Shown here: in pieces, positions 5,345-29,890 of the stretch
Layout of the letters: the number at the start of each line of letters is the position of its first letter
Numbering within the stretch: the first letter of the stretch is position 1
Assembly: GCA_021841025.1 (NCBI GenBank)
Contig: JAKBWA010000041.1
Location: 1 to 37,224, forward strand
Length of the DNA stretch: 37,224 bases
Direction: 5' to 3'
From: Bacillota bacterium
Lineage (GTDB): Bacteria > Bacillota > Sulfobacillia > Sulfobacillales > Sulfobacillaceae
The notes under the pieces: generated by a model
Told to the model about the DNA's origin: nothing
Databases searched by the model: none
Seen by the model: only the letters and a program-made list of their open reading frames with translations
Position numbers and translations under genes: made by a program

Positions 5345-6523
5345 ATGACGAGACAAGAATGGCTTGGGGGACTGGCTTTAATACTCTTTTCGCTTCCAAC
5401 CATACCCAATCACATTACGCCCAGTCCCCTGAACCCAAAAGAGCGGCACATCAAACAGATCCTCTTGAATCTTGTAGCAAAAGAAGACAAGGCCATTGTG
5501 GCGGGCCAGAGGGGGCTTCTTTACTCCGTCTTTCTGCCTCATTCGGACGCCCTTGAAAGGGCTAAAAGACGTGAGAGCTATCTCAAGACGTGGAGCGCCT
5601 TCCGCAACCTGGAAGTCACGGGCGTAAAAGTAAGCGTAAGGACTCCTCACATTCGCTTTTTGCCCTCCGGCAAGGTCCGCGTCTTTGGCGTAGTCGGCGA
5701 ATCCTACCAGCTGACCAAGAAAAACCCCGATTCATTGCCCAAAAATGGCCCCACCGACTCGTTTGGGCTGGGGGTCCGTCATGATTATGAATTAATCTCT
5801 AAACACGGACAATGGTTTATTGCATCTGATGCTTTTACCGACCCCTTGAACCAGGACAGCCGACTTCTGCATCAAGCCCATCCCTCCCAAGGATTTATTA
5901 AATCACATCAATCTGATATTCCTTCCCCTGGTGCCAAAAAAGCCGTGCAATATGCCGACACCTATTGCGGATCCGCTCCAGGCTGCGGCAATGAGCGCTA
6001 TTATAACAGTTACTACAACAGCTACAATGGCGAAGGAGGAGATTGCACGAATTTTGTTTCCCAAGCTCTTCACGCCGGGGGCTTTGGGATGACTGCCACC
6101 TGGGATTATTCACGGGATAAGGGCGAAGGGAGCCCTGCCTGGGTCAATGCAGAGCGTTTAAAGGATTTCTTGGCAGCATCTGGCCGTGCCACTCTTTATG
6201 CATCGGGATCTTACAGCCAGCTTACCAGGCCCTTGGCAAAGTTTCCTGACGGGGCCGTAAACCAGCTGCGTCCCGGAGATGTTATCAGTTACATCGAAGG
6301 TGGCAGGGCTGTTCACTCAGCGATAGTCGTCGGTTACGATGCGTTCGGCTATCCGGTTGTCGACACCCACAGTTCAGATCGTTTCCGTGTTCCTTGGGAC
6401 TTAGGCTGGGATCGCCACACCACCTATGATCTTTGGCATGTCCATTACCCTGGCCCCAAACCTTCTCAAGATGGCGTGCGTCCTCTTTCCATGGGCGCAG
6501 GGGACATCATGAACCACAGGTGA
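5345..6523 (+). CDS. Secreted protein with C-terminal Amidase_6-like domain
   Basis: A 392-aa protein with a short hydrophobic N-terminus (residues 6-19) that looks like a signal peptide or anchor. Residues 45-165 form a domain typical of the N-terminal half of such proteins. The putative amidase (NlpC/P60-like papain-fold) domain spans about residues 196-368: AVQYADTYCG, then GGDCTNFVSQALHAGG with catalytic Cys C234, then VHSAIVVGYD with H324, then DTHSSDRF. These enzymes probably cleave amide bonds in the cell wall; the substrate is not known. The ribosome site is weak (GGTGAT). The last 58 bases overlap the 3' end of the opposite-strand acylase gene, beyond the end of the amidase domain. 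Confidence 0.75.
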   Translation: MTRQEWLGGLALILFSLPTIPNHITPSPLNPKERHIKQILLNLVAKEDKAIVAGQRGLLYSVFLPHSDALERAKRRESYLKTWSAFRNLEVTGVKVSVRTPHIRFLPSGKVRVFGVVGESYQLTKKNPDSLPKNGPTDSFGLGVRHDYELISKHGQWFIASDAFTDPLNQDSRLLHQAHPSQGFIKSHQSDIPSPGAKKAVQYADTYCGSAPGCGNERYYNSYYNSYNGEGGDCTNFVSQALHAGGFGMTATWDYSRDKGEGSPAWVNAERLKDFLAASGRATLYASGSYSQLTRPLAKFPDGAVNQLRPGDVISYIEGGRAVHSAIVVGYDAFGYPVVDTHSSDRFRVPWDLGWDRHTTYDLWHVHYPGPKPSQDGVRPLSMGAGDIMNHR

Positions 6524-8799
6524 GTGAGCATTCCAGGTCCCAGGGGAAAATATTCCCCACGGAGGTAGGGCAGGATAAGATTATCGTAGCGAGACGACAA
6601 GGGGTGTCCCGATTGGCCGGTCACGTGAATACCAACAGACTCCACAGGCCTTGACAAATCCAGAATTTCACGGTAACTGGGCATGAAGGCCACCCATCTT
6701 GGCCACGGCAGATTGGGTTCCAGAGCAAAAGCCGTCTGCAATGGGGTATATAAATCTCCTGGCATCGGTAACATCTGGCGGGAAAATAACGGAGCCAGAA
6801 TTTTGACGTCAGCAAAAGGATGAAACAGCCGGACCTTGTGCGCCCGTCCCCACGCCCAGTGCGCGGGCGTCGCACCCAGGTGTTGACGAAGCCATGTCTG
6901 GGCTTCTGCTATGGCCTTTTTAATATCCAGTTCGTCCCAGTGAGTCAAGACAGCTGGGACAAGACGCTCTCCCATAATACTCCACCACCTCTCAGGATAA
7001 GGGTGAGTTCCTGGCAATCCCGGCCGCATATCACGAAAAAACGGGGTGAAAAGGCGTTCACGGACTGTCCTGGGGACACTCGCCACAGCAAACAAATAGA
7101 GTATAGTGGGCGCGGAGCTCTGGATAGTCACCTCTCCATGAAAGTCCCGAAGAATTTGTCGCCACTCCGAGGGAATATCCTGTTCCCGCAGTTTTTTGGC
7201 CAATTGATCCAAAGGTTCCGAATAGACATCAAGCTGTATGGCACGGAAGCTCTCTTTGGAGTGCCGCGGAACCTGCTCAATAAGTTCTTGAATGCGCCGG
7301 GCCCGTGTTCCCAAAGAATAGCGGCCAAATAGTGGCACTTCTGCCTTGTCGCCCACAACCGGATTGTTGGCGCTGACAATATACCCCGACTGAGGATCAA
7401 AAATGCGGGGCATTTCGGTCCATTCCACCCAGCCCAACCATCGGTACTTTTGCGTGTTGCCATCCACAACCCCCTGCCACGGTCCGTTTTCGCGCAAAGG
7501 CACACGCCCGGCAGCTATATAACCAATATGGCCGGCATGATCGGCGTAGACAAAATTCTGGGCCGGAACCCACCATTCCGCCAAGGCCGTGTTAAATGTC
7601 TCCCAGTCGTGAGCCCGGTCAATGCGCAACACCGCCTGAGCTAAAGGCAGAGGCTGAAAACCTGTCCAAGCCATTGCAATATGATGTCTCGAATCCTCTG
7701 AATAAATCACCGGACCCCACTTTGTGTCGTAGCAAATCAATCGTTCATCTTTTTGCCCTCTCACCTGAATAATCTCTTCGCGTCTTTCAATGCTCTTCAT
7801 TTGGCCATCGACCAGGTAATGCACCTCATCCGCTTCCATGGCAATTCGGTACAGATCTTGAACATCGGGGTCAATATTGGTAACGCCCCAGGCAATATGC
7901 TGATTCTGACCGATCACAATGCCTGGGGTCCCTGGCAACGACGCTCCGAATACGTGTAGTGCCCCGCCTTCCAAAAACATTTCATACCAGATGGAGGGCA
8001 ATTGCGGCATCAGATGCGGATCATTGGCCAAAAGCGGACCGCCCGTCTCCGAATGGCTGCCGTCAACGACCCAGTTGTTGGAACCCACTCCAATACCGCC
8101 CCAGGGCTCATAACTGCCAGAATGGGGAACGATGGTAGGAGCGGTGATGTTGATCTGGCCAAACAGCCACTCGCGAACTTCTTGATCGGTCTCGCTGCCA
8201 ATCTGATCGTAAATCCACTTGGCATGCCAAATCGAGTTAAGCGACCAAGCCAATTGATAGGCTACGGCATTGGTATCCTCTACGGTCCAAGGACGCAGAG
8301 GCACCTTCAAAAAGCGATATTCAGGCGGCAAAGGCTGGGTCGAAAAGGCGTAGTTGACACCATCCACATAGGATTGTACATATTCCTTAGTATTCTCCGA
8401 CCACGTCGTCACAGCCTCGGATGCCCAGCGGCTGATATGGAGCTTGCGCATAAACCGATCAAAGACCAAGGTTTTGGGACCCAACAACTCAGAGAGCTGG
8501 CCTAGCGCCAGCCGCCTCGACAAATCCATCTGAAAAGCCCGTTCCCGGCCATGAATAAACCCTTGCACAAACAAGGCGTCCTTCATGCTTCCCGCCTGTA
8601 CGTGCGGTACACCGATATCATCACGAGTAATCTCCACCACTCCCTCGAGATGTTCCGTGAAAATTTCCTGAGGAAGCTTTTGAACTGGCCTCACCATGCC
8701 CAGCCACCGGAACAAATGAGAGCTTCGCCGGAACCCATGCAGCCACAAGGGATAATGAAAGGAAAGAGAATCGACTTCATTGACATGCGACTTACGCAT
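6466..8799 (-). CDS. Penicillin acylase family protein (Ntn hydrolase)
   Basis: A 777-aa hydrolase of the penicillin/cephalosporin/AHL acylase family, which cleaves amide bonds after autocatalytic splitting into alpha and beta chains. The N-terminal part shows VEITRDDIGVPHVQA and GFIHGRERAFQMDLSRR, both typical of the alpha chain. The processing site is GVGSNNWVV, with S240 as the likely beta-chain N-terminal nucleophile, followed by LLANDPHL, GTPGIVIGQNQHIAWGVTN and NFVYADHAGHIGYIAAG. No clear signal peptide is present, unlike secreted penicillin acylases, so it may act in the cytoplasm or at the membrane. The ATG is preceded by GAGGTG (8804-8809). The natural substrate is unknown. The 3' end overlaps the amidase gene. 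Confidence 0.85.
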   Translation of the reverse strand: MRKSHVNEVDSLSFHYPLWLHGFRRSSHLFRWLGMVRPVQKLPQEIFTEHLEGVVEITRDDIGVPHVQAGSMKDALFVQGFIHGRERAFQMDLSRRLALGQLSELLGPKTLVFDRFMRKLHISRWASEAVTTWSENTKEYVQSYVDGVNYAFSTQPLPPEYRFLKVPLRPWTVEDTNAVAYQLAWSLNSIWHAKWIYDQIGSETDQEVREWLFGQINITAPTIVPHSGSYEPWGGIGVGSNNWVVDGSHSETGGPLLANDPHLMPQLPSIWYEMFLEGGALHVFGASLPGTPGIVIGQNQHIAWGVTNIDPDVQDLYRIAMEADEVHYLVDGQMKSIERREEIIQVRGQKDERLICYDTKWGPVIYSEDSRHHIAMAWTGFQPLPLAQAVLRIDRAHDWETFNTALAEWWVPAQNFVYADHAGHIGYIAAGRVPLRENGPWQGVVDGNTQKYRWLGWVEWTEMPRIFDPQSGYIVSANNPVVGDKAEVPLFGRYSLGTRARRIQELIEQVPRHSKESFRAIQLDVYSEPLDQLAKKLREQDIPSEWRQILRDFHGEVTIQSSAPTILYLFAVASVPRTVRERLFTPFFRDMRPGLPGTHPYPERWWSIMGERLVPAVLTHWDELDIKKAIAEAQTWLRQHLGATPAHWAWGRAHKVRLFHPFADVKILAPLFSRQMLPMPGDLYTPLQTAFALEPNLPWPRWVAFMPSYREILDLSRPVESVGIHVTGQSGHPLSSRYDNLILPYLRGEYFPLGPGMLTHLWFMMSPAPMERGRTPS

Positions 8800-16539: not shown

Positions 16540-16956
16540 GTGTCTACCGTCCTAATCGTCGATGATGAGCCGGGCATACGCTATATCGTCAGCATGGTTA
16601 TCAAACAATGCCACCTTGATTCTCCTGACATTCCATTAAATGCTATTGCGGCAGGTAATGGTAGTGAAGGACTTGATCTTTTATCCCGTTACCGTCCTGA
16701 GTTGGTAATACTCGACAACTGGTTACCCGACATGAATGGCAGTGAATGGCTGGAACGCTCAGCAAGGATTTGGCCGTCCACCGTCATTCTAATCTCTGCT
16801 TCTGCTCAGCTCGAAAAAATAGCCCGGACACACCCGAGAACCGTTGGCATACTGTCCAAGCCTTTCAAATTAGACCAGTTGCGTTCGGCCCTTCAGGAGG
16901 TCTTGGACCCGCACCCTCAAGCACGATACCCAAAGACACTCGGATTTGAACACTAG
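16540..16956 (+). CDS. Stand-alone response-regulator receiver protein
   Basis: A 138-aa protein consisting of a single CheY-like receiver domain and no output domain. The acidic pair is D8-D9 (VLIVDDEPGIR), the phospho-acceptor is D59 in LVILDNWLPDMNG, the Ser/Thr position is S86 in VILISAS, and the invariant Lys is K107 in ILSKPF. All are intact, so phosphorylation is likely. Stand-alone receivers act as relay intermediates (Spo0F, CheY types). The C-terminal extension after residue 122 is short and polar. The GTG start has GAGGA at 16526-16530. The gene converges on the soluble histidine kinase gene 271 bases away, a plausible partner though not in the same operon. Confidence 0.85.
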   Translation: MSTVLIVDDEPGIRYIVSMVIKQCHLDSPDIPLNAIAAGNGSEGLDLLSRYRPELVILDNWLPDMNGSEWLERSARIWPSTVILISASAQLEKIARTHPRTVGILSKPFKLDQLRSALQEVLDPHPQARYPKTLGFEH

Positions 16957-16967
16957 AGATAGACCAA

Positions 16968-16981
16968 ATCCTAAATAGGAT
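16968..16981. terminator. Perfect palindrome between convergent receiver and kinase genes
   Basis: ATCCTA-AA-TAGGAT, followed on the plus strand by CTGCCCTTTTT, lies just after the receiver stop codon. The short stem and near-absent loop make it a weak terminator. Another copy of TAGGAT follows at about 16993-16998. Confidence 0.3.
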
Positions 16982-17227
16982 CTGCCCTTTTTAGGATCGG
17001 GTAACGAATGCTCGCTAGAGTGCTAGCCGCATCTTTGTGGTCAGCAGTCTTTCCACTCTGCCTCAACTCGCGTGTAATCCCGCTGAAAGAACTTTACCTA
17101 TATAACATAGCCTCCAATGCCGTCCCAAATCTAGGCGGCCCCATGGACACCTCAACGGCCCTCATTTTTGTCCGTATAGGCGTTGCGATTCCAGAGCATA
17201 GGCACTTTTAAGAAAGGGATGTCCAGT

Positions 17228-18115
17228 TCACCCCAAATCTATCGCTTTAGACTGTGGGTTTTTTGGCAACGTCACGACGACAACCGTTCCGGGCCTTTGA
17301 TCTTCAATCGTAATTTCACCGTGATGCTGTTGCACAATCCGCCGGCAAATTACCAGCCCCAGGCCGTGTCCGTCATCTTTGGACGTATAGTAAGGATGGA
17401 ACAAGAATGGACGAAGGGCATCGGCAATTCCGGCCCCATTATCCGATATCCGCAAGATGACATAACTGTCCTCGTCTTGGATCGCAATTTTGATTTCCCC
17501 GCCTCCATCAACCGCATCGCGGGCGTTGCCAAGCAAATTGCGTATCACCTGACGAATAGCTTTTCTATCCCCTCGGCTCCAAAGCGGCGCGCCGCGAATC
17601 ATTAAATGAATACCCTTGCACGCCAAATCCTCTTGAAATTCGTCAGCGACCTCCCGGCATAATCGCGTCACATCAAAATCTTCGAAGTGCAGGGCATTTT
17701 GATATCCATGTAAAACATCTTCCAAACGGTCACTGAGCTGCATCAACAATTCTATGGTTTTATTCAACAACGGATGAGAATAAGCCTGGGATAATAACTC
17801 TTGGTAGCCAATGGCTACTGTCAGCGGATTTTTGACTTCATGAACGACTGAAGCCATGACAAACTGATTTTCCTGGTCAGCCATGAGATGCAGCAACACT
17901 TCTGTCAAAAATCCGACCCACGATATGGTTATAGGCTGGCTAAATCCTAGCCGGATTGTTCGTTGGTCCCGTTCCTCTTGGTAAATATAACCCTCCTTGG
18001 GCTCATCTCCCATTTCGGCACCGTCCAGGGCCACAAACTCCAAAGGTAATTGGGAGTGGCGACACCAAGACCAAAACGATTCCAGCACCTGATCTTGCGG
18101 ATTCACGGCAATCAT
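17228..18115 (-). CDS. Soluble sensor histidine kinase
   Basis: A 295-aa kinase without membrane helices. Residues 1-80 form a short N-terminal region with no recognised sensor fold. The dimerisation/phospho-acceptor domain has H92 in VVHEVKNPLT. The ATPase domain shows the N box (RNLLGNARDAV, N193 and N197), the D box (SDNGAGI, D225) and the G box (GHGLGL, 249-254), with the F-box region LFHPYYTSKDDG before it. The HEVKNPLT form and the TSK-GLGL spacing resemble NtrB- and sporulation-kinase-type enzymes. The signal is probably cytoplasmic. The start ATG follows AGGAAAG. Its likely partner is the convergent stand-alone receiver, giving a possible phosphorelay; that pairing is inference. Confidence 0.88.
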   Translation of the reverse strand: MIAVNPQDQVLESFWSWCRHSQLPLEFVALDGAEMGDEPKEGYIYQEERDQRTIRLGFSQPITISWVGFLTEVLLHLMADQENQFVMASVVHEVKNPLTVAIGYQELLSQAYSHPLLNKTIELLMQLSDRLEDVLHGYQNALHFEDFDVTRLCREVADEFQEDLACKGIHLMIRGAPLWSRGDRKAIRQVIRNLLGNARDAVDGGGEIKIAIQDEDSYVILRISDNGAGIADALRPFLFHPYYTSKDDGHGLGLVICRRIVQQHHGEITIEDQRPGTVVVVTLPKNPQSKAIDLG

Positions 18116-18256: not shown

Positions 18257-19276
18257 ATGTCTACTATAGACTTATTTGCAGTACAACCTTATATGACACT
18301 TGCTAACTATGCGACACTAGATAAATTTTACCATAAAGTGGATTTTTTGATGAAGAAGATCGCGGCTCGGCGCGATCCCCATATTCCTGCCCTGGTAGTC
18401 TTCCCTGAAGATCTGGCTACATTTTTGGTATTATCGGACAACCTGGATCTCATTCAAGGCGCAAGTACTATGGACGAAGCCTTTTCACGGATTGGGCGAC
18501 AGCTGTGGCCAGCTTTGTTGGAACAAATGCTCACTCACCACACGCTGTCGCTCCGCAAGGCCTTCTTTCTGTTAAGCGCGCCCAAAACCTGGAACATTTG
18601 GTATAAGACCATGACCGAGATGGCGCGACGTTACGCTGTGTATCTCGTTGCGGGCAGTGCCTTGCTCCCTGATAATGCCAACGGATATCAATCCGGCACC
18701 ATCACCCCTCGGTCCAACCGTGTATTTAACTTCAGTATGACCCTTAATCCTTTGGGAGAGGTCATCCACACCACACGCAAAGTCAATTTGGTGCCAACGC
18801 AAGAAGACACGCTCGATTTATCACCAGGCCCATTGGCTGAGGCTCTTGGCACCTTCACGATCGACAACGTGAGCTGCGCCACCCTTATTTGCTATGACGG
18901 TTTTCGCATCCCGCACACTGCCAAAGAGCCGGGATTTACGCCACTATTGCCATTTCTGGACAAGCAAGGCACTCGCATTATCGCCCAGCCCTCGGCTAAC
19001 CCTTGGTGGTGGCACGAATCCTGGCCTTTTAATCCCAACATGACCCGCAAGGAACAATGGGTGAAGGAAGGTGCCTTCAGCTTGCTCCATCAGCTCTCAA
19101 ATATTTCAGCCATTGTCAACCCTCAGTTGTTATTCCACGCCTTGGATATTCATTTTGATGGCAAAAGCGCGATTTACGGTAGAGAAGGAACCAATGCCGT
19201 CATCTTAGCGCAAAGCCCCTATAGTGATCCCCTTCCCTCCTCGGAAGATCTTGTATGGTTTCGCTGGCGCGATTGA
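18257..19276 (+). CDS. Carbon-nitrogen hydrolase (nitrilase superfamily)
   Basis: A 339-aa enzyme with the nitrilase catalytic triad in context: E51 in LVVFPEDLA, K175 in HTTRKVNLVPTQE and C212 in ATLICYDGFRIP. Members hydrolyse nitriles or amides, or transfer acyl groups. The substrate here is not predictable. The protein has an unusual insertion between the Glu and Lys motifs (about residues 55-120), which contains a helical, aromatic-rich stretch. It starts at ATG with AAGGAG (18245-18250), driven by a good sigma-A-like promoter. A second nitrilase-type gene follows on the same strand after 375 bases, so the two may work in a related pathway. Confidence 0.82.
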   Translation: MSTIDLFAVQPYMTLANYATLDKFYHKVDFLMKKIAARRDPHIPALVVFPEDLATFLVLSDNLDLIQGASTMDEAFSRIGRQLWPALLEQMLTHHTLSLRKAFFLLSAPKTWNIWYKTMTEMARRYAVYLVAGSALLPDNANGYQSGTITPRSNRVFNFSMTLNPLGEVIHTTRKVNLVPTQEDTLDLSPGPLAEALGTFTIDNVSCATLICYDGFRIPHTAKEPGFTPLLPFLDKQGTRIIAQPSANPWWWHESWPFNPNMTRKEQWVKEGAFSLLHQLSNISAIVNPQLLFHALDIHFDGKSAIYGREGTNAVILAQSPYSDPLPSSEDLVWFRWRD

Positions 19277-19651
19277 TATTTGCCATTTTTTACCTTATGA
19301 TCTATGATGTAGCCATTGAGGATTAGACCCTGGGACTTATCCTTCAAAAAGAATTCATCGGCATGTCGGGTCACAATACAGAGGACAGCGAAGTTCTTGG
19401 CCTTTGAACAGCAATAGCATTAGCACAGTCCAGGCCCAGCTCAGCGGTGTGACAGATTGCTCGTTGGGGGAATAGCTTAGAAATCTAGGTTCCCTCTGCA
19501 CATTTTAACCGTTGACGCTGAGTGTCACTGGTCAATTGGGTGTAATGGGAATTCACAAATGCCTAAGGTCCCTGAAAAAGCATACATCTAATTATTTGCC
19601 TGAAAGCGATATGGGACGCCCCCAAAGCGAATCAATGTAGGAGGAACTGCC
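19277..19651. other. Intergenic region between the two nitrilase-type genes
   Basis: No gene or strong hairpin is seen. TTGACG at about 19512 has no matching -10. An AGGAGG ribosome site ends the region just before the next ATG. Confidence 0.35.
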
Positions 19652-21148
19652 ATGCCCGGCCCCCGCCTCGCCATTTGCCAGATAGTCTACGTGCGTGAAT
19701 TGGATAAGGCCCTGGCCCGTGCTAAGGAGTCCGTTCGCCAAGCAGCTAGCCGCGGAGCGGATATCGTTGTTTTTCCGGAATGGTTTTTAGGTCTTAATCC
19801 GGTAGAGGTCATACCGAACCGATTTACCGAAAGTCTTAGTCTGCTGGCCCGCGAACTGGGTATCATGATTATCACCGGCAGTCTGCGTGTTTTGGACAAT
19901 GAGACAATCAAAAAGCAACAAAAAGGTTTGGTTATCGACCAGGACGGAACCATTGTCGGCACTCAAACAAAAATGACATTTCAACCGACCGAACGTCCCT
20001 GGTTTGAGCCGGGAACGGGCATTTCTGCAATCCATACCCGTTTCGGGCGCCTCGTTATTTTGCTGGGATTAGATGCCTTGGATCCCACCCTTTGGGAATC
20101 GACTCGCAGTTTGCAGCCAGATATTGTCGTCATGGCCACGAGCCCTCACACTGTGGCTGAAAGGAACGCGTTGCAAGACTTGGCGATAAACCACAGCCTG
20201 AATATGCAAAACACGATCATCGTGGCACCCTTTCTGGGCCGCTTTGCCGGACAAAATTATATTGGGGGAGCTGTGATAGCCCAACAAGGCCGGCTTGTCA
20301 GCATGGCTGGAGACGATCCCACCTTATTGACGGCTGAAGATCCCCAAGCTCCTTTGATTCAGCTGGGAGTGACCGACATTTCCTATTACACTCCCTTGGC
20401 AAATGTTCCGCCCGGACTCAAGACATATGCTCGCAAGGCCAAGGAACCTGAAGGCGAAAAGAAAGTGTTAGTGGATTGGGGAGCCAACATGCTGCAGGAC
20501 GCATCTGACATCGGGCGTCAACTTCTTCATGCCGCCCAGGATAATCCACGCTGGCTGGCCTTGGCGCCAGGGATTCCAGCCGAGCCATCTCAACTGGAGT
20601 CTTTGCTTGAAGCGGGTTGCGCCGGCTCATTCCTTTACCCGGCCCTCAGCCGCCATCTCCCCTATGATGAGGATGTAATTGCACTGACAGGGGTGATTAA
20701 TCGCTTTAAGCGTCCTGTTTTGATTCATAGCTCTTGGGGTCCTGCCCCATTGCGACTGGAGAGTCCTCTGTTCTGGGACGAGTTTATTCAAAAACTTGAC
20801 GGCGTTCCCGTTGTTATGGTGCATTCTGGAGCCGTTTCTCCTTTTTGGGATGAGGTCATTATGCTCGCCCTGCGCTACCCTCAAGTCCTGCTGGAAACGT
20901 CGTTGATTTCCCTGGAACTTTTACAAAAAACCCTCAGTATTATCGGCCCGTCTCGCCTCGTTTTCGGAAGCGGCGGCGCGGAGAGTCAATTCTTGGATGA
21001 ATGGCAAAAACTCGAATCGCTCAAGCCCTTGCTATCGACTGCAGAATGGACCGAAATCTCCGGCCAAAGAGCCAAAGGGCTGTTTTTTGACACTCCTTGG
21101 GCTCACAAAAGCAACAAACTGTCTGTTGTACGCCGTCAGCCAGGCTGA
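19652..21148 (+). CDS. Nitrilase-like/amidohydrolase-like fusion, probable double pseudoenzyme
   Basis: A 498-aa two-domain protein. Residues 1-250 have the nitrilase fold: E43 in VVFPEWFLG and K107 in GTQTKMTFQPTE are kept, but the position of the catalytic Cys is G139 (ILLGLD where active members have a CYD-type sequence). Residues 270-485 resemble an amidohydrolase_2-type TIM barrel: H359 (RPVLIHSS) and H391 (VVMVHSG) remain. However, the N-terminal HxH metal site is replaced by DWGAN (275-279), and the final Asp of the FGSD motif is G441 (FGSGG). Both active sites therefore look disabled, so a binding, scaffold or regulatory role is more likely than catalysis. The sequence is intact and not decaying. 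An AGGAGG site precedes the ATG. It lies downstream of an active-looking nitrilase gene. Confidence 0.7.
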   Translation: MPGPRLAICQIVYVRELDKALARAKESVRQAASRGADIVVFPEWFLGLNPVEVIPNRFTESLSLLARELGIMIITGSLRVLDNETIKKQQKGLVIDQDGTIVGTQTKMTFQPTERPWFEPGTGISAIHTRFGRLVILLGLDALDPTLWESTRSLQPDIVVMATSPHTVAERNALQDLAINHSLNMQNTIIVAPFLGRFAGQNYIGGAVIAQQGRLVSMAGDDPTLLTAEDPQAPLIQLGVTDISYYTPLANVPPGLKTYARKAKEPEGEKKVLVDWGANMLQDASDIGRQLLHAAQDNPRWLALAPGIPAEPSQLESLLEAGCAGSFLYPALSRHLPYDEDVIALTGVINRFKRPVLIHSSWGPAPLRLESPLFWDEFIQKLDGVPVVMVHSGAVSPFWDEVIMLALRYPQVLLETSLISLELLQKTLSIIGPSRLVFGSGGAESQFLDEWQKLESLKPLLSTAEWTEISGQRAKGLFFDTPWAHKSNKLSVVRRQPG

Positions 21149-21409: not shown

Positions 21410-22003
21410 ATGGAAGATTCGCTCTCGGAAAAAGTTCCGGTAGTGGACTTGCGGGGACAGACTTTATCGCCTTGCAGCTGGGCCAAGGCCGAGCAAAATC
21501 TTCGTGATGGATTAGCCCGTCTCATTGACGGAGTGCTTCATCTTAACTATCGCCCGTTAGCTTACCGAAAAATCTACCGTCTGGTGCGTGAACGCGACGG
21601 CTTAATTTGCGCTTGGTGCCATGGCCCAGGATCAACGCTGGAGCATGTCTTGCCGATCTCCTGGGGAGGGCGCACCACACCGGACAATTGCGTTATCGCT
21701 TGCCGGGCGTGCAACCACTCCCGAAATAATGCGCTGCCCTCGCAATTTATTGCCTGGACAGGATATAAGCCCAGTCACCCCGTGATTCTTAGGATTTTAC
21801 GCAACGAAGAACAGGCCTTGCTTACGGCCAAAGCATCTCTTGGCACTCGGCCCATTGAATCGTGCGCCAGCAAAGAAGAGGCGCAAATTTGGGTTTCTTT
21901 CCGGCAGGGCATGTTTGACTCATCGAGACCAAAGCCCCCATCAGAGCCCATAAGCCGCCTGCATCCGGATCCTAGGCCCTTTTTACAGTTCTTTGTTCCC
22001 TAG
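21410..22003 (+). CDS. Compact HNH endonuclease with IscB-like (PLMP-type) N-terminus
   Basis: A 197-aa protein. The HNH domain spans about residues 64-115: zinc-type CxxC pairs C67/C70 and C98/C101, catalytic-type H79 in LEHVLPISWGG, N93, and ACRACNHSRNN. The N-terminus (residues 8-40, VPVVDLRGQTLSPCSW then AKAEQNLRDGLARLI) matches the layout VxVxxxxGxxLxPC...AxAxxLxxGxA. That layout is shared by the PLMP/RRXRR domain of IscB proteins and by a common family of small bacterial HNH nucleases. With PLMP plus HNH and no RuvC it has the architecture described for IshB. Its partner nucleic acid is unknown. The stop lies 2 bases from the stop of a convergent gene. Confidence 0.7.
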   Translation: MEDSLSEKVPVVDLRGQTLSPCSWAKAEQNLRDGLARLIDGVLHLNYRPLAYRKIYRLVRERDGLICAWCHGPGSTLEHVLPISWGGRTTPDNCVIACRACNHSRNNALPSQFIAWTGYKPSHPVILRILRNEEQALLTAKASLGTRPIESCASKEEAQIWVSFRQGMFDSSRPKPPSEPISRLHPDPRPFLQFFVP

Positions 22004-26015: not shown

Positions 26016-27686
26016 CTACATGGTTTCCGGCACAGAGATTCCCATTAGGCCCAGACCCGACCGAATAATCCACAAGGTCGCTTCACTCAAGGCAACACGC
26101 GCCATCGTCAGTCCTGGATCCTCACTTAAGATCCTGTGCTGGCGGTAAAAGGAATGAAAAGCCGCCGCCAATTCCGTAAGATATTTTGGTAAATATTGTG
26201 GCGCTTTATCGATCGCTGCCCGCTTCAGAACGTCGGGATACCGGGCCAAAGTGAATAGCAGGCGCCTTTCCAAAGGCTCCGCCAACAAATCAACATTCCA
26301 CACAAAGGGATCATGATGACTCTCCCGCCACTGCCGCAGCACACTCGCAATCCGCGCAGCGGCATATTGAACGTAGTAAACCGGATTCTCATTGCTCTTG
26401 AGTTCGGCTAAGCCCAAATCGAAATCCATGGGTGTATTCGGCGCCCTCTCCAGAAAGAAGTAACGGGCGGGATCGACGCCGACTTCTTCAATCAATTGCT
26501 CAAGGGTAACAAATTGCCCCCCGCGTTTGGACATGCGCACAACTTCGCCATTCCGAACCAACCGCACCAACTGAATAATCATCATTTCCAAATGATCAGC
26601 CTTAAAGCCTAGGGCCTCGACCAATGCCCGCATTCGCCCAATGTAGCCGTGGTGATCCGGCCCCAAGAGATCAATAACCCAGTCGTAGCCTCGTTCAAAC
26701 TTGCCTGCGTGATATGCTGCATCGGGGACGAAATAAGTATAATTGCCATCAGATTTCACCAGCACTCGGTCTTTATCGTCACCAAAGCGTGTGGAAAGAA
26801 ACCATTTGGCCCCCTCTTCGGTCTTGACCCAGCCCAACTTTCCCAAACGCTCGATTATTGACTCCGGTGCCCCTTGATTTCTCAGATCTTTTTCATAGAT
26901 CCAGTTTTCAAATTCTACTCCAAAGCGGCGAAGAATTTGTTCTTGAAAACTCCGTAAATATTCTGCGCCAAAGTCCCCTAACTCGACATAAAGTTTCTCA
27001 TCAGGAGATGACAGAGACCAGTCGTTAGGATGTTTCTCCAAATAGTTCCGGGCAATATCAATGATGTATTCTCCCGGGTAAATCCCCTCGGGCCACGGTT
27101 CAACTTTCGTTCCGTGCAATTCTAACATTCTCAAATAGATAGCTTGTCCCAATTTAATAATTTGATTGCCTGCGTTATTAACATAAAACTCCCGGTCCGC
27201 AATGAATCCGTTAGCTCTGAAAATCCGGGCCAACGTATCCCCCACCGCCGCGGCCCGGCCGCTGACAATCACTAAAGGGCCCGTGGGATTCGCCGAAACA
27301 AATTCAATCAGAATTCGTTTGCCTTGCCCCCACCGGCTATGGCCGTAAAGAATTCCTTGAGCCCTAATATCATTGATCACTTCCGCCAGCCAGGGTGTAG
27401 CCAGAGTAAAATTTAAGAATCCGGGGCCAGCCGCCTCGATGTCAACAACTAATTCGCCTAACTGCTTGTGCAGTTCCGGCAACATGTCTTCCGCCAAAGC
27501 ACGCGGAGGCTTACGAACGCTTTTCGCGATCTTAAGACAAATGCTTGATGTCAGATCCCCATGTCCTTCTTCAGAAGGCACATCCACTTCAATACGTTCA
27601 GAATCTGCATGTATATCGTGCGCCGTGAACCAGGATTCTATCGCCCGAGTTATGCTCTCTCGCGCTATGTCCAACCGGGATGCCAC
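26016..27686 (-). CDS. argS: Arginine--tRNA ligase with degenerate HIGH motif
   Basis: Charges tRNA-Arg with arginine. The 556-aa protein has the ArgS N-terminal domain (EEGHGDLTSSICLKIAKSVRK) and the class I Rossmann fold. It also has GADHHGY-like GPDHHGYIGRM, the KMSKS-equivalent RMSKR at 384-388, EEVGVDPARYFFLERAPNTPMDFDL, and the anticodon-binding tail ending SEATLWIIRSGLGLMGISVPE. The HIGH motif, expected after SANPTGPL, reads VIVS (139-142), so neither motif histidine is there; flanking SANPTGPL and GRAAAVGD are intact and in frame. Start is GTG with an AGGGGGG site. Only 11 bases separate it from speB, so it belongs to the polyamine operon. Whether it is active as it stands is an open question. 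Confidence 0.9.
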   Translation of the reverse strand: MASRLDIARESITRAIESWFTAHDIHADSERIEVDVPSEEGHGDLTSSICLKIAKSVRKPPRALAEDMLPELHKQLGELVVDIEAAGPGFLNFTLATPWLAEVINDIRAQGILYGHSRWGQGKRILIEFVSANPTGPLVIVSGRAAAVGDTLARIFRANGFIADREFYVNNAGNQIIKLGQAIYLRMLELHGTKVEPWPEGIYPGEYIIDIARNYLEKHPNDWSLSSPDEKLYVELGDFGAEYLRSFQEQILRRFGVEFENWIYEKDLRNQGAPESIIERLGKLGWVKTEEGAKWFLSTRFGDDKDRVLVKSDGNYTYFVPDAAYHAGKFERGYDWVIDLLGPDHHGYIGRMRALVEALGFKADHLEMMIIQLVRLVRNGEVVRMSKRGGQFVTLEQLIEEVGVDPARYFFLERAPNTPMDFDLGLAELKSNENPVYYVQYAAARIASVLRQWRESHHDPFVWNVDLLAEPLERRLLFTLARYPDVLKRAAIDKAPQYLPKYLTELAAAFHSFYRQHRILSEDPGLTMARVALSEATLWIIRSGLGLMGISVPETM

Positions 27687-27697
27687 GACAATCCCCC

Positions 27698-28558
27698 CTA
27701 TCCTATGGCGAGTAATAGCTCGCGAACCAGTTTTGCTGCCAAGACGGCAGACCTCTGAGACACGTCATGAAGGGGCATGACCTCTACAAGATCTGCTCCG
27801 ACAACTTGTAAGCCTTTGAGTAGCCGCACGGCTTCAAAGGCTTCAGTGGACGAAATGCCACCCGGCTCTGGCGTGCCGGTCCCGGGCATATAGGCCGGAT
27901 CAATTACGTCGCTGTCTATAGTGACATAGACGGGACGGACCCGCAACTCACTAAGCACTTGTTTTAGCGGTTCTTTGACTTCGTGAGGGTAAAAGTGGCC
28001 AAATTCACGAGCAAAATGAACCTCATCCCGTGTTCCCGAACGAATGCCGAATTGGTATAGATTTTTGGGTTTAATGCATTCCGTAATCCGCCGCATTACC
28101 GTGGCATGTGAGAGCTTTTCCCCTAAATAATCATCGCGTAAATCGGCATGGGCATCAAAGTGCACAATCACCAATTCAGGATATTCTTCCACTAATGCCT
28201 GCACGAGAGGAAGAGTGACAAGATGTTCACCGCCCAGAGCGAATAATCTTTTCTTGTCCTTAATAATCTTTTTAGCCGCCGTTTTAATCCGATTCAGACT
28301 CTCCGTGACATTGCCAAAGGGAAGCTCCACATCGCCCGCATCGCAAATCCTCAGCTCCTCTAAATCACGGTCTTGAGTGAGGGAGTAGGTTTCGATGGCA
28401 TAAGACGCTTCTCGGACGCGACTTGGAGCAAACCGTGATCCCGGCTGAAAAGAGACGGTATAGTCCATGGGTATGCCGAAATAGATCCATTGGGCATCGG
28501 CCCAGGAACTGACCATCCCCAGAAACTTGTCGGTCTTCTGGAATGGCGTGTCGTTCAC
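27698..28558 (-). CDS. speB: Agmatinase (ureohydrolase family)
   Basis: Hydrolyses agmatine to putrescine and urea, using a dinuclear Mn centre. The 286-aa protein has the ureohydrolase metal ligands: H112 (LGGEHLVTLP), D135/H137/D139 (HFDAHADLRDDY) and D215/D217 (TIDSDVIDPAYMPG), plus PGTGTPEPGG. The GTG start at 28558 overlaps the speE stop codon in a GTGA arrangement, indicating translational coupling; a longer open frame upstream lies within speE and is not the start. In thermophiles related enzymes act on N1-aminopropylagmatine instead, and sequence alone does not settle which. Third gene of the pdaD-speE-speB-argS operon. Confidence 0.93.
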   Translation of the reverse strand: MNDTPFQKTDKFLGMVSSWADAQWIYFGIPMDYTVSFQPGSRFAPSRVREASYAIETYSLTQDRDLEELRICDAGDVELPFGNVTESLNRIKTAAKKIIKDKKRLFALGGEHLVTLPLVQALVEEYPELVIVHFDAHADLRDDYLGEKLSHATVMRRITECIKPKNLYQFGIRSGTRDEVHFAREFGHFYPHEVKEPLKQVLSELRVRPVYVTIDSDVIDPAYMPGTGTPEPGGISSTEAFEAVRLLKGLQVVGADLVEVMPLHDVSQRSAVLAAKLVRELLLAIG

Positions 28559-29367
28559 CGGATGAGTTCCTCCACAAACACGGGCAGGTGAAAACAACTC
28601 TTCTGGATTTCCGGAGTCCAGTAGCGTGTCTTCAAGGGCACTTGACGAGGCAACTGGAGAGCTTTTTTGGCTCCTAAGGTAAAACTCCATAGCCCCGAAG
28701 GATAAGTGGGGACAGAGGCCAGGTAGAGCCTCGTGACGGGAAATGCCTGAGAGACTCCGTTTATGACGCGCTGGATGATATCCGGCTCCAAAAAAGGTGA
28801 TTCCGATTGGGCTACCATAATACCATCTTCACTCAAGGCATCATAGATACTCTGATAAAATTCAGGCACAAACAATCCTTCGGCCGGTCCTACCGGATCG
28901 GTGGAATCCACTAAAATCACATCGAAATTTCTGGCCTGTTTTACCCAGGCAATCCCATCTGTGAAATGAACATGGGTCCGATCATCTTGGAGTCCTTTTG
29001 CTATATCCGGAAAGAAGCGTTTGCTGGCATCCACTACTCTTTCATCTATTTCAATGAGATGCGCTTCTTCGATTCCAGTGTGCTGGAGGATCTCACGAAT
29101 GGCTCCGCCGTCTCCGCCCCCTATTACCGCGACCTTGCGCGGGTTAGGATGCAGCAGCAAGGGAACATGAGCAATCATCTCATGATAGACAAACTCGTCT
29201 AAACTCGTCGTCTGAATGGCTCCATCGAGGACTAACATACGTCCATAGGCCTCTGTCTGCAAGACGGCCAATTCCTGGTACGGGGTTTTTTCACGCCACA
29301 ATACATCTTCGATCTTGAGCCCTAAGCTCACATTGTGGGTCTGCAGTTCACTAAACCAAGTGTTCAT
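28555..29367 (-). CDS. speE: Spermidine synthase / aminopropyltransferase
   Basis: Transfers an aminopropyl group from decarboxylated S-adenosylmethionine to putrescine, giving spermidine. The 270-aa length is normal. Motifs: YHEM (62-65), VAVIGGGDGGAIREILQH (GGGDGG at 83-88), IEIDERVVD (E106, D108), TDGIAWV (D137) and ILVDSTDPVGPAEGLF (D154, D157), all as in SpeE. The ATG has a weak GGCAGGA ribosome site. It lies 61 bases after pdaD and overlaps speB by 4 bases. The SAM decarboxylase (speD) that supplies the donor is not in this window. Confidence 0.94.
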   Translation of the reverse strand: MNTWFSELQTHNVSLGLKIEDVLWREKTPYQELAVLQTEAYGRMLVLDGAIQTTSLDEFVYHEMIAHVPLLLHPNPRKVAVIGGGDGGAIREILQHTGIEEAHLIEIDERVVDASKRFFPDIAKGLQDDRTHVHFTDGIAWVKQARNFDVILVDSTDPVGPAEGLFVPEFYQSIYDALSEDGIMVAQSESPFLEPDIIQRVINGVSQAFPVTRLYLASVPTYPSGLWSFTLGAKKALQLPRQVPLKTRYWTPEIQKSCFHLPVFVEELIR

Positions 29368-29428
29368 CTGTTGTTGTCCTGCCTTTCACGAAGCCTCTTA
29401 TGGGCTTATCCTTCCATTTGCCAACAAA

Positions 29429-29890
29429 TTAGTACCACAAGGCGACTGCAGCCAAAGCGCAACCAATGGACTCGACCCGGTGCTCACTGGCGCGAACGAT
29501 TACCCGTGTCAATTCTCGCCTTCGTTGCTGAAACGCCGCACGGACCATTTCCGTTACAGCCGCTTCGGCTTCACTTTGACCACAGCGGCCGGAAAACTCC
29601 ATAATCACTCCATATTCATCATCTTGGCCAATCCCCACAGCCACTGCCGCTGAGATCGTCTCCGCCCTCAAGTCCGATGTGATAGTGCCATATGCCGTGG
29701 GCATCAACTGTCCCGGGATGACGTCCAGTTTCTCCACTAAAGTGGCGTGAGGGGGAAGAATGGAGCTTACGCGAATAAGATTCACATTGCCGATTCCGGC
29801 AGCCAATAAGGCATTGTCAAATGCATTCAAACGGCTGGGGCCTTCGGCCGACCCTGCAATCAGGGTATATTTTTTCGGTGTTTCTAGCAC
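29429..29890 (-). CDS. pdaD: Pyruvoyl-dependent arginine decarboxylase
   Basis: Decarboxylates L-arginine to agmatine with a pyruvoyl group made by self-cleavage. The 153-aa protein matches the family length. The self-cleavage site is S42-S43 in LIRVSSILPPHA, which gives beta and alpha chains with pyruvate at the former S43. Other conserved parts are AGIGNVNLI, GQLMPTAYG and the C-terminal glutamate of DDEYGVIMEFSG. GTG start with AAGGAGG 7 bases upstream. It is the first gene of the operon that leads from arginine to spermidine. It is divergent from the PBP gene, with 294 bases between them for the promoters. Confidence 0.94.
   Translation of the reverse strand: MLETPKKYTLIAGSAEGPSRLNAFDNALLAAGIGNVNLIRVSSILPPHATLVEKLDVIPGQLMPTAYGTITSDLRAETISAAVAVGIGQDDEYGVIMEFSGRCGQSEAEAAVTEMVRAAFQQRRRELTRVIVRASEHRVESIGCALAAVALWY

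Follow-up and report, generated by a model that had tools for sequence, protein, structure and literature searches.

A nitrilase–amidohydrolase fusion that looks inactive in both halves is conserved across a bacterial order

Enzymes of the nitrilase superfamily share a catalytic C/E/E/K tetrad (PMC6637149). Superfamily proteins in which Ala or Ser replaces the Cys have been crystallized with amides or putrescine left unconverted: PMC6637149 cites 1uf5 and 4izs, MtCPA C158S binds putrescine unmodified (PMC4812014), and 6ypa is, by its entry title, a C146A variant with glutaramide. In a 37,224 nt stretch of DNA (the window) we found a gene whose product looks like a natural counterpart of these Cys-replaced mutants, in that the charged residues are kept and the nucleophile is gone. 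A literature search on nitrilase pseudoenzymes and Sulfobacillus nitrilases yielded nothing relevant, and no description of the fusion was found in it.

The gene lies on the + strand at 19652..21148 and encodes a pseudo-nitrilase/pseudo-amidohydrolase fusion of 498 aa, characterized via its ORF, translation, Pfam matches and 36 orthologs from three families. As stated in the initial annotation, the frame is unbroken over 498 codons; it begins with ATG at 19652, and an AGGAGG read directly at 19639..19644 (+), 7 nt before the ATG, is the likely ribosome-binding site. Both Pfam domains score above their cut-offs. The nitrilase-fold half (residues 5–229; 19664..20338, +) matches CN_hydrolase with an E-value of 3.4e-17 and 63.1 bits (cut-off 23.2), and the model of residues 1–231 superimposes on solved enzymes of the superfamily with Z about 24 and rmsd 2.4–3.0, which places it in this superfamily by fold. 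The second half is a truncated amidohydrolase_2-like barrel (about residues 264–482; 20441..21097, +). Its Amidohydro_2 match covers residues 292–441 (E 1.4e-8; 35.3 bits, cut-off 26.4) but only profile positions 71–246; the barrel modelled alone (pLDDT 76, pTM 0.78) fits 3cjp with Z 18.5 over 202 residues, and its fold is thus that of the Amidohydrolase_2 family. The full-length model of the fusion is weak (pLDDT 66, pTM 0.48), and residues 45–55 and 104–123, which include pocket residues, are modelled very weakly.

When the fusion was aligned to nitrilases that keep the Cys, E43 (19778..19780, +), K107 (19970..19972, +) and E114 (19991..19993, +), the last being the second Glu of the tetrad, occupied three of the four catalytic positions; each is identical in 36/36 orthologs. 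The fourth, the nucleophilic Cys of the ICYD motif, aligned with G139 (20066..20068, +) in LGLD, and this Gly is likewise found in all 36 sequences, so that the complete tetrad is absent. The pairing of a retained Glu and Lys with G139 for Cys, proposed in the initial annotation from a single sequence, therefore extends to every ortholog, with E114 as a further kept residue. D141, R57, R79, S182 and R197 are also fully invariant in the 36-sequence alignment. No column holds Cys in more than 8 of the 36 orthologs, and we rejected a Cys elsewhere in the chain as substitute for the lost nucleophile, as a conserved Cys column does not exist in this set. Gly at position 139 is common to 7/7 outgroup members from two other families, which indicates that the loss of the Cys is old.

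As for the barrel, single-domain Amidohydro_2 relatives carry DxHxH, a Lys on strand 4, two His and GSD; alignment to them shows the fusions without DxHxH and without the strand-4 Lys, with variable His and with GSG in place of GSD. This last exchange corresponds to G441 (20972..20974, +) where the relatives have the metal-site Asp, and Gly is present in 35/35 sequences that reach the position. The two barrel His that were described as kept are indeed present in the window, as H359 (former strand 5; 20726..20728, +) and H391 (former strand 6; 20822..20824, +), but they are replaced in many orthologs (conserved in 81% and 54%, respectively; R or A at position 359 in most outgroups) and do not mark a retained active site. 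The claimed absence of the HxH pair and of the final Asp held up, and the first unit, which would bear HxH, seems to have been lost outright rather than merely substituted: the Pfam match starts at profile position 71, the model aligns to amidohydrolases only past their first strand (3cjp from 22, 4dlf from 43, 3irs from 53), and seven strands are visible in it. The first residues of the barrel model are of low confidence, which leaves some doubt about the loss of this strand. We looked for an alternative metal site, and found no His conserved at ≥97% in the ortholog alignment; judged from the sequence, the conserved acids D376, E415 and E450 form no evident ligand set, and this candidate was rejected. 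The features of a catalytic metal-dependent amidohydrolase, HxH on strand 1, the Asp of strand 8 and conserved His, are hence lacking. Judged by their residues, both halves are pseudoenzymatic, and neither looks capable of its ancestral hydrolase chemistry.

Within the family of the window, matches to the fusion were found in 30 of 34 genomes (22 of the 23 good ones) and in all 11 genera, with ortholog identity falling to ~42%; among named Sulfobacillus relatives, an S. benefaciens MAG shares 82% and S. harzensis 49%, which suggests that the window derives from a Sulfobacillus-like bacterium. Full-length orthologs are also present in two further families of the order (f141, 6/7 genomes; f142, 1/1). 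Sampling of the class (154 genomes) and the phylum (398 genomes), together with one scan of genome contigs, yielded only single-domain relatives outside the order and did not recover an active ancestral fusion; the plasmids searched held single-domain nitrilases only. As only single halves occur in the sampled genomes outside it, the fusion appears to be an invention at the level of the order. The conservation of G139 and G441 among orthologs, which the initial annotation had suggested checking, rules against chance or a local change: with Gly at both positions throughout three families, a recent mutation or an assembly error was rejected.

Selection acts on both halves. Closely related pairs with usable dS gave dN/dS values mostly of 0.02–0.18 in either half, and 83 columns are invariant among 28 orthologs, including P42 E43 W44 G47 N49 P50, K88 Q89 Q90, K107, E114, W117 F118 and G196 R197 F198. 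Conservation is somewhat higher in the nitrilase half, with a mean column identity of 0.69 and 34 invariant columns, against 0.63 and 20 in the barrel. Positions of the nitrilase pocket are fixed, whereas the His once belonging to the barrel site vary about as much as an ordinary residue, which suggests that of the two ancestral pockets it is the nitrilase one that still functions. With the catalytic motifs gone and dN/dS low in both halves, the sequences argue for an old protein under selection and not in decay. The proposed selection for a non-catalytic role is thereby well supported, by order-wide conservation, invariant substitutions, low dN/dS and the lack of a replacement Cys or metal site. 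A functionless gene that is decaying and has yet to lose its frame could point to the decayed copy in one genome, G512, but is hardly credible given the retention in nearly all good family genomes and throughout the order.

Upstream of the fusion, at 18257..19276 (+), lies a gene for a nitrilase-like protein of 339 aa, subsequently called the partner. It is divergent (20.2 bits, below the Pfam cut-off), and its tetrad E51/K175/E183/C212 is intact: E51 and C212 are invariant in 34/34 orthologs, K175 and E183 in 18. In all 25 loci that carry both genes on one fetched stretch, the partner is upstream of the fusion on the same strand. The gap is 37–402 nt in 21 of these loci (375 nt in the window, 37–41 nt in the f141 loci) and 3.9–7.5 kb in the other four, with other genes in between. 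This constant order, usually at less than 500 nt, suggests that partner and fusion are functionally coupled. Promoter-like matches in this region were no commoner than in shuffles. Outside the order, partner homologs showed no apparent kinship among their gene neighbourhoods.

Partner and fusion usually travel together, and each is able to persist alone. Profile searches did not find a partner ortholog in G001, G002 and G005 (the sole partner-like match in G002 is distant and lies within another gene), and in G004 the partner is reduced to fragments in different frames between flanks that are 80–84% identical to G003; the fusion is intact in all four genomes. In G512 the partner is intact and the fusion is a remnant (L126:7239-8039), in which the N-terminal start is joined to C-terminal pieces and the nitrilase half is mostly gone; it sits between the partner and the HNH gene described below. 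The state of the partner changes three times on the tree, and at least two of these changes are forced by well-supported branches. Since at least three lineages that have lost or broken the partner still keep the fusion, control of this nitrilase cannot be its sole role.

Several other genes and features deserve mention. A small HNH protein (197 aa, 21410-22003), strongly conserved in the family (57–91%), is often encoded by the next gene downstream of the fusion, in the same orientation; its HNH part resembles that of IscB (NF040563, 1.8e-9, below cut-off), and a weak RRXRR-like match at the N-terminus recalls the IshB type. At locus L059 (2503-3772), ORF translations repeat motifs such as 'HARGSTP' and 'ACAGID' and look like a translated CRISPR array. 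The region beside the nitrilase pair (window 16540-18115) encodes a response regulator with a single domain (16540-16956) and, on the − strand, a short histidine kinase (17228-18115); both recur in several relatives. A penicillin amidase family gene (6466-8799, 777 aa, Pfam E 7e-182) is present in the window, and a homolog is located about 2 kb from the fusion at locus L073. A polyamine cluster on the − strand (26016-29890) comprises genes for a pyruvoyl arginine decarboxylase (29429-29890), a spermidine synthase (28555-29367) and an agmatinase/arginase-family protein (27698-28690), these three 6–9 kb downstream of the fusion, and for an arginyl-tRNA synthetase (26016-27686). The last three of the four genes are again found close to the fusion in several genera. 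We take the polyamine gene set as a lead to candidate ligands only.

What might such a protein do? As most of the nitrilase pocket is kept and the nucleophile is not, ligand sensing is plausible from the sequence, and on balance we favor the view that the fusion is a non-catalytic amide- or amine-binding pseudoenzyme whose ligand is read out through the barrel. The pocket would hold a small amide- or amine-type ligand that it cannot attack, and the fused barrel, now a scaffold or interaction domain, would read out binding. In most species this readout may act on the co-oriented nitrilase-like neighbor, or within an oligomer with it, and the fusion would have a further role where the partner is missing. 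More speculatively, and in our estimate doubtful in this full form, the double pseudoenzyme could serve as a dedicated intracellular receptor for small molecules, its Cys-less pocket sensing an amide, carbamoyl or polyamine-type metabolite and its metal-less barrel relaying the signal to control the adjacent nitrilase and other targets throughout the order.

An alternative that we regard as unlikely is that the fusion mainly serves the adjacent nitrilase as a subunit with a structural or regulatory task, the two forming a dead/active pair of the prozyme type. Order-wide adjacency on the same strand, the short gaps in f141 and the invariant partner tetrad fit this idea, as do the dimers and larger oligomers of the nitrilase superfamily, in which neighboring subunits shape the pocket (PMC4812014, PMC6637149); PMC5201418 describes a precedent in T. 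brucei, where AdoMetDC is accompanied by a dead paralog, the prozyme. However, a dedicated dead subunit would be expected to co-occur strictly with its enzyme, and the fusion is intact in four genomes where the partner is missing or broken, while G512 retains the partner with only a remnant of the fusion. The suggestion in the initial annotation that the fusion controls the neighboring nitrilase is thus supported by the adjacency and the conserved Glu and Cys of the neighbor, and weakened by these losses. It is less probable still that the fusion is an active enzyme of altered chemistry, using Glu-Lys-Glu as acid/base without a Cys nucleophile. E43, K107, E114, D141, R57, R79, S182 and R197 are conserved more strictly than the fold alone would seem to require, and a review on pseudoenzymes warns of migrated catalytic residues (PMC10211241), but the Cys is required by the mechanism of the superfamily, and the sole invariant candidate nucleophile near G139 is D141, which active members possess as well.

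If our preferred reading of a ligand-binding pseudoenzyme is right, the fusion would be a strongly conserved, nearly order-wide double pseudoenzyme in which the nucleophile-to-Gly exchange was fixed in the ancestor and which adjoins an intact homolog in most species. It would offer a clean natural system for studying what a nitrilase pocket does once the Cys is gone, and genomes that have naturally lost one or the other gene are at hand for comparison.

The fusion shares its fold (Z about 24), E43/K107/E114 and the D141 of the CYD motif with members of the nitrilase superfamily such as N-carbamoylputrescine amidase, D-carbamoylase and PH0642. It departs from the active members in that the Cys is Gly in all orthologs, KQQ stands in place of the YN(T/S) of active relatives, and a barrel is attached. 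With the Amidohydrolase_2 family (ACMSD-like enzymes, dihydroxybenzoate decarboxylases and CAC3332/3cjp) it has in common the barrel from the second strand on and the LETS and FGS motifs; it differs in the apparent absence of the HxH strand, the change of GSD to GSG, the lost strand-4 Lys and the unconserved His. Like the AdoMetDC prozyme of T. brucei, it is an inactive enzyme relative kept beside an intact homolog, although it combines two putatively dead folds in one chain and outlasts the loss of its intact neighbor, and its regulation of that neighbor is putative. NitFhit (solved as 1ems) also joins a nitrilase-fold domain to another enzyme domain, which is Fhit in that protein and an amidohydrolase barrel in the fusion.
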